Origin: Clostridia bacterium
Lineage (GTDB): Bacteria; Bacillota_E; SLMV01; PUMD01
Assembly (NCBI GenBank): GCA_003562655.1
Contig: PWUC01000202.1
Coordinates: 1 to 9,442 of the forward strand
Direction: 5' to 3'
DNA length: 9,442 nucleotides
Of this stretch, positions 2,896-7,525 are shown one piece after another. Position 1 is the first letter of the stretch. Each line of letters begins with the position of its first letter. The notes beneath the pieces are model-generated. The model was not told the DNA's origin. It worked only from the letters and a program-made list of their open reading frames with translations, and did not search any database. The translations under genes and the position numbers were made by a program.

Positions 2896-2941
2896 ACAAT
2901 CACCCCGCTCCCATCCTGCGGCACGTCAACAACCTCATTAG

Positions 2942-2952
2942 TACCTGTATGC
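2942..2952 (-). promoter_or_regulatory. GCATACAGGTA motif, candidate sporulation-sigma -10 region
   Basis: Identical to the motif at 2242-2252 and 57 bases before the GTG at 2895. It lies in the divergent region shared with the first mini-gene promoter on the other strand. No clear -35 element is visible. Confidence 0.35.
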
Positions 2953-2998
2953 GGAGGCGAAGCCCTTTGCGCCCGGGTGAAAGCAGCCCGACCTTCCG

Positions 2999-3028
2999 TT
3001 AACAAGTCCCGGGCGTGATACGTATTAT
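2999..3028 (+). promoter_or_regulatory. Sigma-A-like promoter of mini-gene 1
   Basis: TTAACA (2999-3004), an 18-base spacer, and TATTAT (3023-3028). Each hexamer matches the consensus at 5 of 6 positions. The same boxes with the same spacing are kept in the second repeat unit although the spacer sequence differs, which supports function. Confidence 0.6.
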
Positions 3029-3050
3029 GTAACGAACTCGAGGGCCCTGA

Positions 3051-3074
3051 CCCCGAACACGATTCGGGGAGGTG
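3051..3074 (+). promoter_or_regulatory. Leader hairpin overlapping the Shine-Dalgarno site of mini-gene 1
   Basis: CCCCGAA (3051-3057), loop CACGA, TTCGGGG (3063-3069). The 3' arm runs into the ribosome site GGGGAGGTG (3066-3074), so the stem would cover part of it. The second repeat unit keeps a shorter CCCCG/CGGGG version. Translational control is an inference. Confidence 0.45.
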
Positions 3075-3082
3075 AACAAAAG

Positions 3083-3226
3083 ATGCTGCTGGGCAGACGC
3101 GACCCTGGTATTGGCTCTCTGCTTTTGTTCCTCGTACTGGCCGGACTGGGCGACTTCCGCCGTGATGACAATCTGCTGACGCTGCTGCTCTTCCTCTTCC
3201 TCATCGGCGATACCGTTCGCTACTGA
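3083..3226 (+). CDS. Leucine-rich hydrophobic mini-protein 1 (47 aa)
   Basis: Start ATG at 3083, 8 bases after GGGGAGGTG. The product begins MLLGRRDPGIG and has hydrophobic segment 1 (SLLLFLVLAGLG, residues 12-23), a charged turn DFRRDD (24-29), hydrophobic segment 2 (LLTLLLFLFLIG, 31-42) and a short tail DTVRY. The segments are short for classical transmembrane helices; a membrane-inserted hairpin or peripheral association is plausible. It is nearly identical to the next mini-protein (44 of 47 residues), and base differences between the two are mostly synonymous, which argues for a real selected gene. It has its own promoter and trailing hairpin. Function unknown. Neighbouring spore-coat-type genes suggest a spore-envelope role; a type I toxin-like peptide is an alternative. 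Confidence 0.85.
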   Translation: MLLGRRDPGIGSLLLFLVLAGLGDFRRDDNLLTLLLFLFLIGDTVRY

Positions 3227-3256
3227 TCGACAGTCCCTGAATTCCAGGCCGCACGT

Positions 3257-3279
3257 GGGGAGGCCCCCTGGGTCTCCCC
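3257..3279 (+). terminator. Intercistronic stem-loop after mini-gene 1
   Basis: GGGGAGGCCC (3257-3266), loop CCT, GGGTCTCCCC (3270-3279), giving a 10-bp stem with one G-U pair. No T-run follows, so this may be a weak terminator, a processing site or a 3' stabiliser. An equivalent hairpin follows mini-gene 2. Confidence 0.5.
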
Positions 3280-3426
3280 AGCTCCTCCCGGGCAGTCTGC
3301 AGCGTGCCCATGTGACAGATGCTGCCTCTGACAGGGCGACCGGACTGCGCGGCCCCAGCGGGCTGCCTTCCTTTCGGCGCACCCCCAGGGAGGATTCGAC
3401 CCCCCGACGCACCACCCCGCCTTCCG

Positions 3427-3456
3427 TTAACACATTTATGTCCCGGTGCGTATTAT
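3427..3456 (+). promoter_or_regulatory. Sigma-A-like promoter of mini-gene 2
   Basis: TTAACA (3427-3432), 18-base spacer, TATTAT (3451-3456), with both boxes and the spacing the same as in unit 1. The second mini-gene can therefore be transcribed on its own. Confidence 0.6.
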
Positions 3457-3477
3457 GTACCGACCTGAGGGCCCAGA

Positions 3478-3501
3478 CCCCGCAATCCACTCGGGGAGGT
3501 G
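3478..3501 (+). promoter_or_regulatory. Leader hairpin overlapping the Shine-Dalgarno site of mini-gene 2
   Basis: CCCCG (3478-3482) can pair with CGGGG (3492-3496), which overlaps the ribosome site GGGGAGGTG (3493-3501). It is weaker than its counterpart in unit 1 because the two extra A-T pairs are lost. Confidence 0.35.
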
Positions 3502-3509
3502 AATGACGA

Positions 3510-3653
3510 ATGTTGCTAGGCACTCGCGACTCTGGTATCGGCTCCCTGCTTCTGTTTCTTGTGCTGGCCGGACTGGGCGACTTTCGCCGCGATGACAATC
3601 TGCTGACGCTGCTGCTCTTCCTCTTCCTCATCGGCGATACCGTTCGCTGGTAG
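3510..3653 (+). CDS. Leucine-rich hydrophobic mini-protein 2 (47 aa)
   Basis: Start ATG at 3510, 8 bases after GGGGAGGTG; the ATG at 3502 is in another frame and abuts the ribosome site. The product differs from mini-protein 1 at only three residues (R5T, P8S, Y47W) and keeps both hydrophobic segments and the DFRRDD centre. It has its own promoter and trailing hairpin. Function unknown; see mini-protein 1 for topology and alternatives. Confidence 0.85.
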   Translation: MLLGTRDSGIGSLLLFLVLAGLGDFRRDDNLLTLLLFLFLIGDTVRW

Positions 3654-3679
3654 ATGAAGACCGAGGCAGTAACCCCGTG

Positions 3680-3707
3680 GGGGGAGGCCCTCAAGAGGGC
3701 CTCCCCC
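3680..3707 (+). terminator. Intercistronic stem-loop after mini-gene 2
   Basis: GGGGGAGGCCCTC (3680-3692) and GAGGGCCTCCCCC (3695-3707) form a perfect 13-bp inverted repeat around AA. It is followed by ATCCAGG rather than a T-run. Mini-gene 3 has no evident promoter of its own, so some readthrough or RNA processing is expected here. Confidence 0.55.
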
Positions 3708-3785
3708 ATCCAGGCCCGTCGTGGCAAAGTCACAGCAGACTCCAACTGCGCAGACGTAGCGGCATTCATGGAGGAGGTGAAGTAG

Positions 3786-3932
3786 ATGCTCGGTCGTGAC
3801 GGTGACATTGGCTCCCTGCTGCTGTTTCTCGTACTGGCCGGAGGACTCGGCGACTTCCGCCGCGATGATCAGCTCCTGACGCTGCTGCTGTTCATCCTCC
3901 TCGCAGGAATGGGAGACTTCCACCGCAAGTAG
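3786..3932 (+). CDS. Leucine-rich hydrophobic mini-protein 3 (48 aa)
   Basis: Start ATG at 3786, 6 bases after GGAGGAGGTG. The product starts MLGRDGDIG, then SLLLFLVLAGGLG, the charged turn DFRRDD, QLLTLLLFILLAGMG and the tail DFHRK. It shows the internal two-fold design most clearly: LLLFLVLAGGLGDFRR in the first half and LLLFILLAGMGDFHR in the second. It is a divergent paralogue of mini-proteins 1 and 2. No promoter-like boxes resembling theirs precede it, so it is probably co-transcribed. Function unknown. Confidence 0.85.
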   Translation: MLGRDGDIGSLLLFLVLAGGLGDFRRDDQLLTLLLFILLAGMGDFHRK

Positions 3933-3980
3933 TCGAGGACCGACAGCTGTAACCGGCAAGGACCAAAACCCAAATTCGCA

Positions 3981-4006
3981 GGGAGGTGGAGGTATCTCCA
4001 TCTCCC
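3981..4006 (+). terminator. Intercistronic stem-loop after mini-gene 3
   Basis: GGGAGGTGGAG (3981-3991), loop GTAT, CTCCATCTCCC (3996-4006), giving an 11-bp stem with one G-U pair. No T-run follows. Position and base composition match the hairpins after mini-genes 1 and 2, although the sequence differs. Confidence 0.5.
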
Positions 4007-4035
4007 TCCGGCCGGAACGTGGGAGGTGTTGCTGC

Positions 4036-4203
4036 ATGTTTGATCGCAATGGTGGTTTGGGATCGCTGGTTCTGTTGCTCATCCTGTCCGGGATGCTGGA
4101 CGGTTTCGGCGATGGAGACGACGTAATGCCTTTACTCCTGCTGCTGATATTGCTCGGCGGGGGACTCGGCAGATCAGCCACCACGGCAGACAAGGAGAGC
4201 TGA
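4036..4203 (+). CDS. Leucine-rich hydrophobic mini-protein 4 (55 aa)
   Basis: Start ATG at 4036, 7 bases after GGGAGGTG. This is the most diverged and longest member. MFDRNGGLG leads into SLVLLLILSGMLDGFG, an acidic turn DGDD, a second segment MPLLLLLILLGGGLG, and a polar tail RSATTADKES. It keeps the layout of the other three (G-S-L hydrophobic run, charged centre, leucine run) but has lost the RR pair. It is the last gene of the array, followed at once by a strong terminator. Function unknown. Confidence 0.8.
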   Translation: MFDRNGGLGSLVLLLILSGMLDGFGDGDDVMPLLLLLILLGGGLGRSATTADKES

Positions 4204-4215
4204 CACGGTGCCGCC

Positions 4216-4249
4216 ACGGGGGACGTGGGTACCTCGTCCCCCGTTTTCT
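4216..4249 (+). terminator. Rho-independent terminator ending the mini-gene array
   Basis: ACGGGGGACG (4216-4225), loop of nine bases, CGTCCCCCGT (4235-4244), then TTTTCT. Of the four hairpins behind the array genes only this one has a T-run, so the array likely ends here and the next gene is expressed separately. Confidence 0.8.
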
Positions 4250-4320
4250 CACCGGATCGTCGCCCGGTGCCCCCGAGGCCGCCCCTCAGCACGGCCGAGG
4301 TGTCTTTTTTCCTTCCCGAG

Positions 4321-4334
4321 GCATACCGTATACT
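4321..4334 (+). promoter_or_regulatory. GCATACCGTATACT motif, candidate -10 region
   Basis: GCATAC lies 54 bases before the ATG at 4375, nearly the same distance as the GCATACAGGTA motifs of the paralogous pair. CATACCGTA fits the SigK-type CATAnnnTA pattern and is close to the SigE-type -10. It overlaps TATACT (4329-4334), which could serve a sigma-A promoter instead. I see no clear -35 for either reading. Confidence 0.4.
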
Positions 4335-4374
4335 GGTCAGCACGATACAGACGGCTGCGACCGGGGAGGAGACC

Positions 4375-5355
4375 ATGCTGCGAGCAGATCCACACCAGAT
4401 CCTTTCCAGTTACGAACAACTGGACGATGACCCGGCTGTGCGCAGGGCAGACTACAGGACCTATCTGGTCGAGGAAGCAGACTGCCAGTACCTCCTGCGA
4501 GATGCCCTGGACCCGGAGCCAATCTGCCGGGCCCACCGGCTCATGCAATCCCTGAAGAAGAGGGGATTCACCAATCTCGTGCCCATCGTTCCCACGACCC
4601 GTGGAGAACCCACAGTCTCGGGGTACGGCGGTGAGTGGTATCTTCAGCCCCACTATCCCCCGGCAGAGTTGAACACCGGGGAAGAGCTTCTGCGACTGGC
4701 CCGCCTCCTGGGGAGCCTCCATCTCTGCACGGAGGGTGAAGAGGAGGGTTCCATGGTCCACGGTCGTCTCGGACCCGGGGTGGTCAGGGCCGGCCCCTCG
4801 GGAGAGCTTCTCCTGGACTCCTGGGACCACGCAGGACCGGGCAACGCCGCCGACGACCTGATGCCGCTGCTGTTCATGGCCGCACAGCAGGGCTGCGCAG
4901 TCCCGGCCTCGACCCTTGACGCATATGCTTCGGTCCGGGATCTCGGCAAGAAAGAACGCTCCCGGCTCAATGACCTGATCGCCCGCTGCCGCGAGTCCCG
5001 ACTGCGGGGACTGGCTGTGCCGGAGCCCAAGGAGAAGCCCGGGGAGATGCCGCCGGGCGATTTACTGGAGCGGGCCCTCAGTGCCGTCGAAAAGGGGAAA
5101 TGGACCCCATCAAGGGAGGATGAGACCGTGTCCAGACCTGAGCTCAACCGTGAAGACGTCGATGTCAGACCCACTGAAGACGAGGTGGGAGGGGATCCGC
5201 CGGAGAAGGAAAAGGAGAAGCTCTCTCCCCTGCGGTGGGAGTTCCCACCCGCCCTGTCCGCCGCTGACGAAAAAGGCACCGCGCCGGACGAAGAAACCGA
5301 ATGTTGTGATCAGCAGGAGCAGAAAGACGACCGCTGTATCCCGGAACAAGGGTGA
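4375..5355 (+). CDS. CotS-like spore-coat pseudokinase with acidic C-terminal tail
   Basis: Product of 326 residues from ATG 4375, which follows GGGGAGGAG; longer upstream starts overlap the terminator and are rejected. Residues ~25-195 resemble the CotS/YutH kinase-like spore-coat family. YRTYLVEEADCQYLLR resembles the N-lobe strand that normally ends in the ATP-binding Lys, here Arg42. KKRGFTNLVPIVPTTRGEPT (61-80) fits the family's GF...IPT..G segment. HGRLGPGVV (129-137) takes the place of the catalytic HGDLHPxN, so the Asp is Arg131 and the metal-binding Asn is absent. LLDSWDHAGPGNAADDL (146-162) corresponds to the DFD loop. Such loss predicts no phosphotransfer and a structural role. Residues ~215-326 are Glu/Lys/Pro-rich low complexity with a CC near the end. 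It has its own promoter region. The family call comes from motif layout and is moderately sure. Confidence 0.65.
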   Translation: MLRADPHQILSSYEQLDDDPAVRRADYRTYLVEEADCQYLLRDALDPEPICRAHRLMQSLKKRGFTNLVPIVPTTRGEPTVSGYGGEWYLQPHYPPAELNTGEELLRLARLLGSLHLCTEGEEEGSMVHGRLGPGVVRAGPSGELLLDSWDHAGPGNAADDLMPLLFMAAQQGCAVPASTLDAYASVRDLGKKERSRLNDLIARCRESRLRGLAVPEPKEKPGEMPPGDLLERALSAVEKGKWTPSREDETVSRPELNREDVDVRPTEDEVGGDPPEKEKEKLSPLRWEFPPALSAADEKGTAPDEETECCDQQEQKDDRCIPEQG

Positions 5356-5426: not shown

Positions 5427-5951
5427 CTACGGTGCCTCACGAGAGCCCTTCGGACCCATCTCCTGGCCATCCTCGCGCGAGAGGACCGCCACACACATGC
5501 GCACCGGCCCGCTCACCTCAATCCTGCCCCGGACACGGATCACCAGACCGATCCGTCCCTCCTCGTCTGCACACAGAAACACCCTACGAAGGGTGGCGTC
5601 GGGGGCGATCAGGGACACCTCGGGCTCCGCATTTCGCACCGGGGTCATGAATGCGTCGAAGGTCAGGGGCACGCGAACCCGATACCCCTCGCGGGCGGTG
5701 AACGCATCGACATCGCCCCTCCCGCGGGCGGGAACATACTGAATCCGCCAGTTCAGGGTGCCTCGCACCAGGACATGTCGACGGTCCAGGTGAGCGTCAA
5801 CGCTGTGTCGCACCGTCCTCGCGTCCACGATCCCGGCCGCGGGCCGCGGGGGGGCGACGTACACCACCTCCGTGGCATCGGCGACCGCCCGGGCAAAGAC
5901 ACTGACGGCGGTGATCTCTCTGACGTCCCAGGATCCCCCGTACAGGTCCAT
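5427..5951 (-). CDS. SPOCS/DUF3794-like domain protein, probable spore-coat assembly
   Basis: Product of 174 residues from ATG 5951, with a G-rich ribosome site (GGGGGGGAG) 5 bases upstream. Residues ~58-158 match the layout of the SPOCS (DUF3794) domain of SipL and clostridial CotE-like coat proteins: HVLVRGTLNWRIQYVP (59-74), a short Arg/Gly loop, VPLTFDAFM, then alternating beta strands ending GLVIRVRGRIEVSG (135-148). In known members these domains bind coat or morphogenetic proteins. This one has a single domain and no LysM, so it is shorter than SipL. The first 55 residues (RAVADATEVVYVAPP) may be part of a second, degenerate repeat. It follows guaB on the same strand with a 50-base gap. 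The assignment is by motif pattern only; there is no signal peptide. Confidence 0.65.
   Translation of the reverse strand: MDLYGGSWDVREITAVSVFARAVADATEVVYVAPPRPAAGIVDARTVRHSVDAHLDRRHVLVRGTLNWRIQYVPARGRGDVDAFTAREGYRVRVPLTFDAFMTPVRNAEPEVSLIAPDATLRRVFLCADEEGRIGLVIRVRGRIEVSGPVRMCVAVLSREDGQEMGPKGSREAP

Positions 5952-6001: not shown

Positions 6002-7525
<1,524 letters not shown>

Follow-up and report, generated by a model that had tools for sequence, protein, structure and literature searches.

The window, that is, the whole stretch of 9,442 nucleotides analysed here, carries an S8 protease gene on the plus strand (named from its Pfam match), two related genes on the minus strand, four mini-genes and a CotS-like gene on the plus strand, a minus-strand ORF, and two minus-strand ORFs at its end, which we take to be IMPDH and MurC. 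Nothing in the window matched Rfam. The mini-genes lie one after another on the plus strand at 3083-3226 (47 aa), 3510-3653 (47 aa), 3786-3932 (48 aa) and 4036-4203 (55 aa). As described in the initial annotation, all four are complete and preceded by a Shine-Dalgarno sequence, which is purine-rich and reads CGGGGAGGTG before genes 1 and 2, GGAGGAGGTG before gene 3 and GGGAGGTG before gene 4. Gene 2 is a near-duplicate of gene 1 (94% amino acid identity) with a promoter and leader of its own, gene 3 has no promoter copy of its own, and gene 4, which adjoins the CotS-like gene, belongs to a diverged "terminal" subfamily. Two long minus-strand ORFs (2999-3808 and 3516-4376) overlie the array and are weakly similar to the minus-strand frames over the array of a related locus, L031 (E 4e-7 and 4e-5). 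Mirrored coding sequence would produce such matches, and no further support for these two ORFs was found.

All four mini-proteins consist of a charged turn flanked by two hydrophobic runs. The initial annotation described this design correctly. The motif GSLLLFLVLAG..GDFRRDD..LLTLLLF is common to the products of genes 1-3; gene 4 is a diverged version in which GFGDGDD replaces GDFRRDD. The charges of the products of genes 1-4 (5+/5-, 4+/5-, 5+/6- and 3+/7-, respectively) make the proteins neutral to negative.

The typical member of the family is composed of two copies of one unit of ~20 residues (about RRDDIGTLLLFLLLAGMGDF), and a few members have three (P0014, P0029 and L037b, the second gene of the array in genome G083). 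One example, P0010, reads MLG-RRDDISTLLLFLVLAGIGD-RRDDIGTLLLFLLLAGMGDFRF, i.e., one unit, twice. The repeat was examined by the self-comparison of 31 proteins, namely 8 database proteins picked for a visible repeat and the products of all 23 locus genes, against 300 shuffles that preserved the hydrophobic pattern (residue class). The similarity between the first and second halves was equalled by 0/300 shuffles for gene 1, 0/300 for gene 2 and 2/300 for gene 3. Gene 4 failed this test (89/300), and it is one of nine proteins, all from locus genes, for which more than 10 of the shuffles did as well (w4, L031b, L031c, L031d, L032b, L032d, L032e, L033b and L033c). A clear repeat was thus seen in 14 of the 23 locus genes, with a period of 18-21 residues, and in the 8 chosen database proteins, with a period of 18-22.

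Each unit has a zwitterionic cap rich in R and D, a run of ~12-16 Leu, Phe, Ile, Val, Ala and Gly residues without a strongly polar face, and a G-D turn. The hydrophobic runs span 9-17 residues, mostly 12-16, the GRAVY values range from 0.33 to 0.92, and the net charge differs from zero by no more than 2, the exceptions being L037b and the terminal type (w4, L031d, L032e and L033c). The AlphaFold model of the gene 3 product, built on a 37-row alignment, contains helices at residues 5-20 and 26-45 (pLDDT 72.5, pTM 0.47); a Foldseek search with this model found no match in the PDB at E<=10. The hydrophobic runs and the predicted helices suggest that the mini-proteins probably form a helical hairpin in the membrane.

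The initial annotation knew of no named family with this layout, and the database searches agreed with it. Against Pfam at E<=10, genes 1, 3 and 4 matched no family and gene 2 gave one sub-threshold match (DUF4267, E 0.13). NCBIfam returned no match for any of the four, no PHROG fitted genes 1, 3 and 4 (best E 0.35), PADLOC had no match for the same three genes, and profile A3 found none among the PDB sequences. Meanwhile, homologues were readily found among 5.77 billion proteins. A one-sequence search gave 7 matches at E<=1, including the window's own, with homologues down to E 6e-16. Profile A1, scored over the 7970 candidates with the most words in common, gave at least 40 sequences at E<=1, again including the window's own, with the best at E 1.7e-19. 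All 40 family proteins listed by the profile are 40-69 aa long. In several cases, two or three of them come from contigs of the same size, which suggests further arrays. The subfamily of gene 4 is rarer: its own profile search found 3 proteins including gene 4 itself, and its equivalents by position lie at 9320-9499 in locus L031, 9573-9746 in L032 and 9370-9549 (minus strand) in L033. The suspicion that gene calling misses such genes is only partly true, as two relatives are annotated in a metagenome-assembled genome (MAG) as R6U70_07340 and R6U70_07350.

A degenerate DNA pattern applied to the contigs of GTDB genomes matched 6 stretches, five of them in three Clostridia MAGs (B1Sed10_244R1, B1Sed10_227R1 and T1Sed10_160) and one in a Myxococcales MAG; the same pattern had 0 matches in viral contigs. 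The Myxococcales stretch was taken for a chance match because the profile covers 18/48 positions there, inside an open frame of 1870 aa. The pattern is not exhaustive, since the carrier genome G083 is absent from its matches. A scan of the GTDB contigs with a single protein matched 585 stretches, none of which was confirmed as a relative, perhaps because tblastn masks leucine-rich sequence. Within the class, the family is present in 4/154 genomes (G001, G003, G004 and G083), and its known range is thus a narrow group of spore formers, some of which come from soda lakes. A second profile at E<=0.1 matched 7/154, and the extra genomes G011, G015 and G143 (partial matches, E 0.03-0.1) were regarded as noise. 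In an even sample of the phylum, the one carrier among 398 genomes was G003, the centre of the sample itself. The B1Sed10 and T1Sed datasets are described as high-salinity ones (PMC6146748), and the same source relates more than 50 MAGs there to Syntrophomonadaceae and places their 16S genes nearest to Dethiobacter-related sequences. From this we infer that the carriers belong to this Syntrophomonadaceae-related group near Dethiobacter. A literature search for exact peptide strings found no paper, no report on tandem small hydrophobic proteins in Firmicutes sporulation was found, and among the papers listed by wider literature searches (10 of 62 and 8 of 15), no title or abstract opening names such proteins.

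The codon substitutions were compared in 16 chosen pairs among the 23 locus genes. The dN was lower than the dS in 16/16 pairs, which share genes and are therefore non-independent, several of their dS values being near-saturated; for genes 1 and 2 the dN was 0.05 and the dS 0.32, and for gene 1 and L031a they were 0.23 and 0.82. The third codon position was the most changed, or tied for it, in each of the 16 pairs. As judged from these substitutions, the mini-protein family is under purifying selection, a pattern whose absence in relatives the initial annotation would have taken as a refutation. The low complexity of the proteins could suggest that the frames are chance GC-rich ORFs coding for hydrophobic residues, or low-complexity expansions, and not genes at all. 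This explanation is extremely improbable, being contradicted by the homologues, the dN/dS values, the repeat, and the conserved locus and promoter described below. By sequence comparison, the mini-proteins are a real, narrow and previously unnamed family.

The locus itself is conserved. An array with the CotS-like gene 3' of it recurs in relatives, where the initial annotation had proposed to look for it, in 4/4 loci where the contig continues. In all four, the mini-gene nearest to the CotS-like gene is of the longer diverged type (55-59 aa). An S8 gene precedes the array in 4/5 loci, L037 having no S8 match, and IMPDH and MurC follow in the 3/3 loci that the contigs reach. The 174-aa minus-strand ORF at 5427-5951 had no significant match in Pfam or NCBIfam and no BLAST match among the ORFs of eight compared loci. 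The initial annotation called this neighbour SPOCS-like, which is not supported: there was no Pfam SPOCS match, and at E<=10, Pfam (5430-5951) yielded DUF7256 alone (E 0.13).

The two related minus-strand genes upstream of the array form an unnamed family, A6. Copy A (1784-2194) has orthologues beside every main-locus array read, and copy B (2521-2895), 34% identical to copy A, is divergent from mini-gene 1. A gene of this family flanks 5/5 main-locus arrays (the window, L031, L032, L033 and L037), it is duplicated in the window and in G083, and its profile matches exactly the 4/154 genomes that bear arrays. Copy B matched a PHROG family of unknown function (E 0.009). The promoter-like motif GCATACAGGTA lies before copy B at 2942-2952 (minus strand) and before copy A at 2242-2252. 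In the four genomes, the motif GCATACNGGTANTA was seen before 3 genes of this family and at one other site, in G083:C293. On its neighbourhood and common range in a few related genomes, we regard the gene as a candidate partner of the mini-genes; common descent alone could yield the shared range.

The gene at 4375-5355 (plus strand) resembles CotS and YsxE, as had been proposed, and would encode a degenerate kinase fold. The window protein matched the YsxE model TIGR02904 at E 1.2e-4 and Pfam APH at E 1.9e-4, both under the cut-off. Three orthologues were matched by TIGR02904 (E 6e-8 to 1.5e-11), each of them again below the family cut-off, and had no Pfam APH match at E<=1. With TIGR02906 and TIGR02904, the scores of 14-44 bits stayed far below the curated cut-offs of 172.7 and 263.55. 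In the Foldseek search, the best PDB match was B. subtilis YtaA (2q83, E 6.5e-9), presumably a coat protein, and APH-type kinases were matched as well; the fold is kinase-like (TM about 0.45, model pLDDT 63.5). The protein has a long, charged tail predicted with low confidence, most of residues 211-326 being of this kind. In 4/4 aligned proteins, the stretch aligned with the catalytic motif HGD reads HGR, HSL, HGG or HGN, so that the protein, lacking the catalytic Asp, is likely a pseudokinase. Its profile matched 6/154 genomes, strongly in three carriers and with weak scores (E 1.7e-4 to 2.8e-7) in three further genomes; G083 was unmatched, and its contig ends at the array. No match to the gene was found in phage records or viral contigs.

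The promoters of gene 1 (2999-3028) and gene 2 (3427-3456) both read TTAACA - 18 nt - TATTAT(GTA), and they are the sole sigma-70-like sites in the region 2900-4420 (0.3 in shuffles). Among the 23 mini-genes, 16 have this promoter (15 with the exact TATTATGTA and 1 with a variant), its -10 element beginning 48-72 nt upstream of the start codon. The seven mini-genes without it are all at array tails (w3, w4, L031c, L031d, L032d, L032e and L033c). In the four genomes, RTATTATGTA occurs at 27 sites, 13 of them before mini-genes and 14 elsewhere, the latter number being close to the 13 that a control with the reversed pattern gave. Three of the mini-gene sites (the two in C88 and the second one in C96) were not flagged by the regular expression but are shown by the other comparisons to precede mini-genes, and were counted as such. 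A -35 element with at least 4/6 identity to TTAACA accompanies 13/13 mini-gene sites versus 2/14 others. Of these two others, the one in G083:C279 has a 4/6 element, and the one at G001:C45:2469-2478 a perfect TTAACA-17-TATTATGTA that no mini-gene follows within 300 nt.

Downstream of the promoters, a leader motif was seen in gene 1 (GAGGGCCCTGACCCC, 3040-3054) and gene 2 (GAGGGCCCAGACCCC, 3467-3481), and GAGGGC is exact in 10/16 leaders. In gene 1, the CCCC of the motif opens a 7-bp hairpin (3051-3069) that reaches into the Shine-Dalgarno sequence, and the fold of 3040-3083 has -15.0 kcal/mol. The leader hairpin is strong in gene 1 and in copy a of G083 and inconsistent across the leaders; therefore, no RNA switch is claimed. 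Folding also showed plus-strand hairpins after the genes: GC-rich ones without a T run after gene 1 (3256-3280) and gene 2 (3680-3707), one between genes 3 and 4 (3981-4006, its ends read from the sequence) and one followed by TTTTC after gene 4 (4216-4244), a possible terminator of the array. A terminator scan of 2900-4420 gave one site (3349-3366), no more than in shuffles (1.0), and none of the hairpins after the genes.

The promoter scan also bears on the possibility that the array is a set of type I toxin-antitoxin modules, i.e., small hydrophobic toxins repressed by antisense RNAs. The small size and hydrophobicity of the proteins, their tandem paralogues and the own promoters of several of them would fit toxins of this type. 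However, the scan of 2900-4420 showed no sigma-70-like promoter on the minus strand, the array occupies a fixed place with the same flanking genes in several genomes, the two hydrophobic runs are made from a repeat, and PADLOC, which is not a dedicated type I library, had no match for genes 1, 3 and 4. Hence, we consider this reading unlikely.

The same promoters are central to the question of whether the mini-proteins are specific to the spore. Here, the mother cell would produce them under the control of sigma-K or sigma-E, and they would be deposited, together with the CotS-like protein, on the outer membrane or coat of the forespore. The presence of the CotS-like gene 3' of the array in 4/4 loci reached speaks for this, and SpoIVA was over the cut-off in all 4 carriers. 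SpoIVA is, however, present in 139/154 genomes of the class at E<=0.001 (130 over the cut-off) versus the mini-proteins in 4, and so widespread a protein does not tie the mini-proteins to spores. The sigma-K pattern is AC-N16/17-CATANNNTA. The -35 region and spacing of the 15 exact promoters fit this pattern: [AC]AC stands 16-17 nt upstream of the -10 in 15/15, the third base of the -35 is never G, and the -10 starts with CRTA in 12/15. The one to three mismatches to the pattern all fall in the -10. The identity of the -35 to TTGACA is 3-5/6. Elements reading GCATAC or GAATAC were also seen upstream of the CotS-like and partner genes in most loci read. Against this, the promoters of genes 1 and 2 have 10/12 identity to the sigma-70 consensus as well, and the spoIVA promoters look different in the 2/4 carriers where they were read (CATATT..CATATAC). 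As a native yardstick for sigma-K we looked for dpaA, and none was over the cut-off in the 4 carriers. At two unrelated sites (G001:C96:1800-1809 and G083:C24:22604-22613), TTGACA stands 9 nt before TATTATGTA; this spacing rules them out as sigma-A promoters. On its sequence, the mini-gene promoter resembles both the sigma-A and the sigma-K types, and it leaves the choice between growth and sporulation undecided.

Further mini-genes were found outside the main locus, three in G001:C194, one in G001:C99 and one in G003:C88. Pfam matches in 6/9 neighbouring ORFs placed the extra copies near OpuAC and MatE, MutS_V and Ham1, and saccharopine dehydrogenase and amidohydrolase; the ORFs around G001:C194 are presumably an M3-type peptidase and an exonuclease III-like protein. 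No spore gene was recognised among the scanned neighbours, which argues against a role confined to spores. A further copy at G001:C178:30048-30183 (L036 about 6049-6184, minus strand) has its frame broken after unit one, with a similar promoter still recognisable. At G083:C235:11991-12104 (L038), an ORF of ~60 aa with two hydrophobic runs matched the profile weakly (E 2e-4) and is possibly, if doubtfully, a distant relative. The dispersal over several contigs of G001 and G003 also counts against secreted leaderless peptides, either bacteriocins or surfactant-like, which the tandem small genes, the charged ends and the lack of a signal peptide by eye could otherwise indicate. Such peptides would be expected to be cationic, but the charge is neutral to negative, and of the nine window proteins scanned none was recognised as an exporter or immunity protein; we consider this reading highly unlikely.

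The neighbours suggest a spore role, and a spore-envelope function may be inferred from them, as in the initial annotation, while the extra copies without recognised spore neighbours and the undecided promoter keep it at that level. We rank a general envelope role first, and the spore-specific role second, as a possible though less probable alternative. Our preferred reading, to which we assign a probability of roughly 45%, is that the locus encodes a lineage-restricted array of membrane mini-proteins whose helical hairpins use their repeated units to assemble within the envelope of the cell or forespore. Each protein would form a short helical hairpin sunk in the lipid membrane, with charged caps at its ends and turn. 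The ends of each protein look like its internal junction, so that neighbouring proteins may pack side by side as though the chain ran on, giving an open-ended membrane assembly. The amount of this assembly would be set by the number of genes, the promoter, the short leader and the strong Shine-Dalgarno sequence. As the array is tied to the divergent partner gene and to the degenerate CotS-like kinase, the assembly would probably be located in the envelope of the cell or forespore. Several findings weigh against the membrane assembly: at 12-16 residues, the hydrophobic runs are short in relation to a standard bilayer, the pTM is 0.47, the PDB contains no match, the repeat is clear in 14/23 locus genes, and genes 3 and 4 are without a promoter.

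A more far-reaching version, which we regard as rather doubtful, is that the modular 20-residue units, two or three to a protein, build a self-assembling membrane layer of a new kind. It would be produced in bulk from several dispersed genes under one dedicated promoter-leader element, organised by the dedicated partner and the pseudokinase, and would serve halo-alkaliphilic Clostridia as an armour of the cell or forespore membrane. If the mini-proteins do assemble in membranes, they would represent a self-associating hydrophobic repeat in a minimal natural form and could help to account for membrane protection in the spore formers of salt-saturated soda lakes. With this analysis, the small proteins, a part of the proteome that is under-reported by gene callers, gain a well-delimited family marked by its repeated unit, its promoter signature and a candidate partner.

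Although the family is unmatched, its broad kind, small multi-copy membrane proteins, is already known. The neighbouring product of 4375-5355 is like the CotS/YsxE family in its model matches and kinase fold and differs from it in the sub-cut-off scores, the altered HGD and the low-confidence tail. Leaderless multi-peptide bacteriocins of the aureocin A70 kind also have several small peptide genes in a row; the mini-proteins, unlike them, are not cationic, and the scanned proteins included none recognised as an exporter or immunity protein. Type I toxins of the Ldr/Ibs/TxpA kind, which occur in tandem arrays, are likewise small hydrophobic paralogues, whereas the mini-genes have a fixed locus and an internal repeat, and no antisense sigma-70-like promoter was found. 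SpoVM and the YjcZ-type proteins are tiny hydrophobic membrane proteins of spore formers and share their size, hydrophobicity and kind of host with the mini-proteins. The latter differ from them in having no significant match in Pfam or NCBIfam, in a promoter that is not clearly of the sporulation type, in their occurrence in 4/154 genomes of the class and in being built as a repeat of two units.
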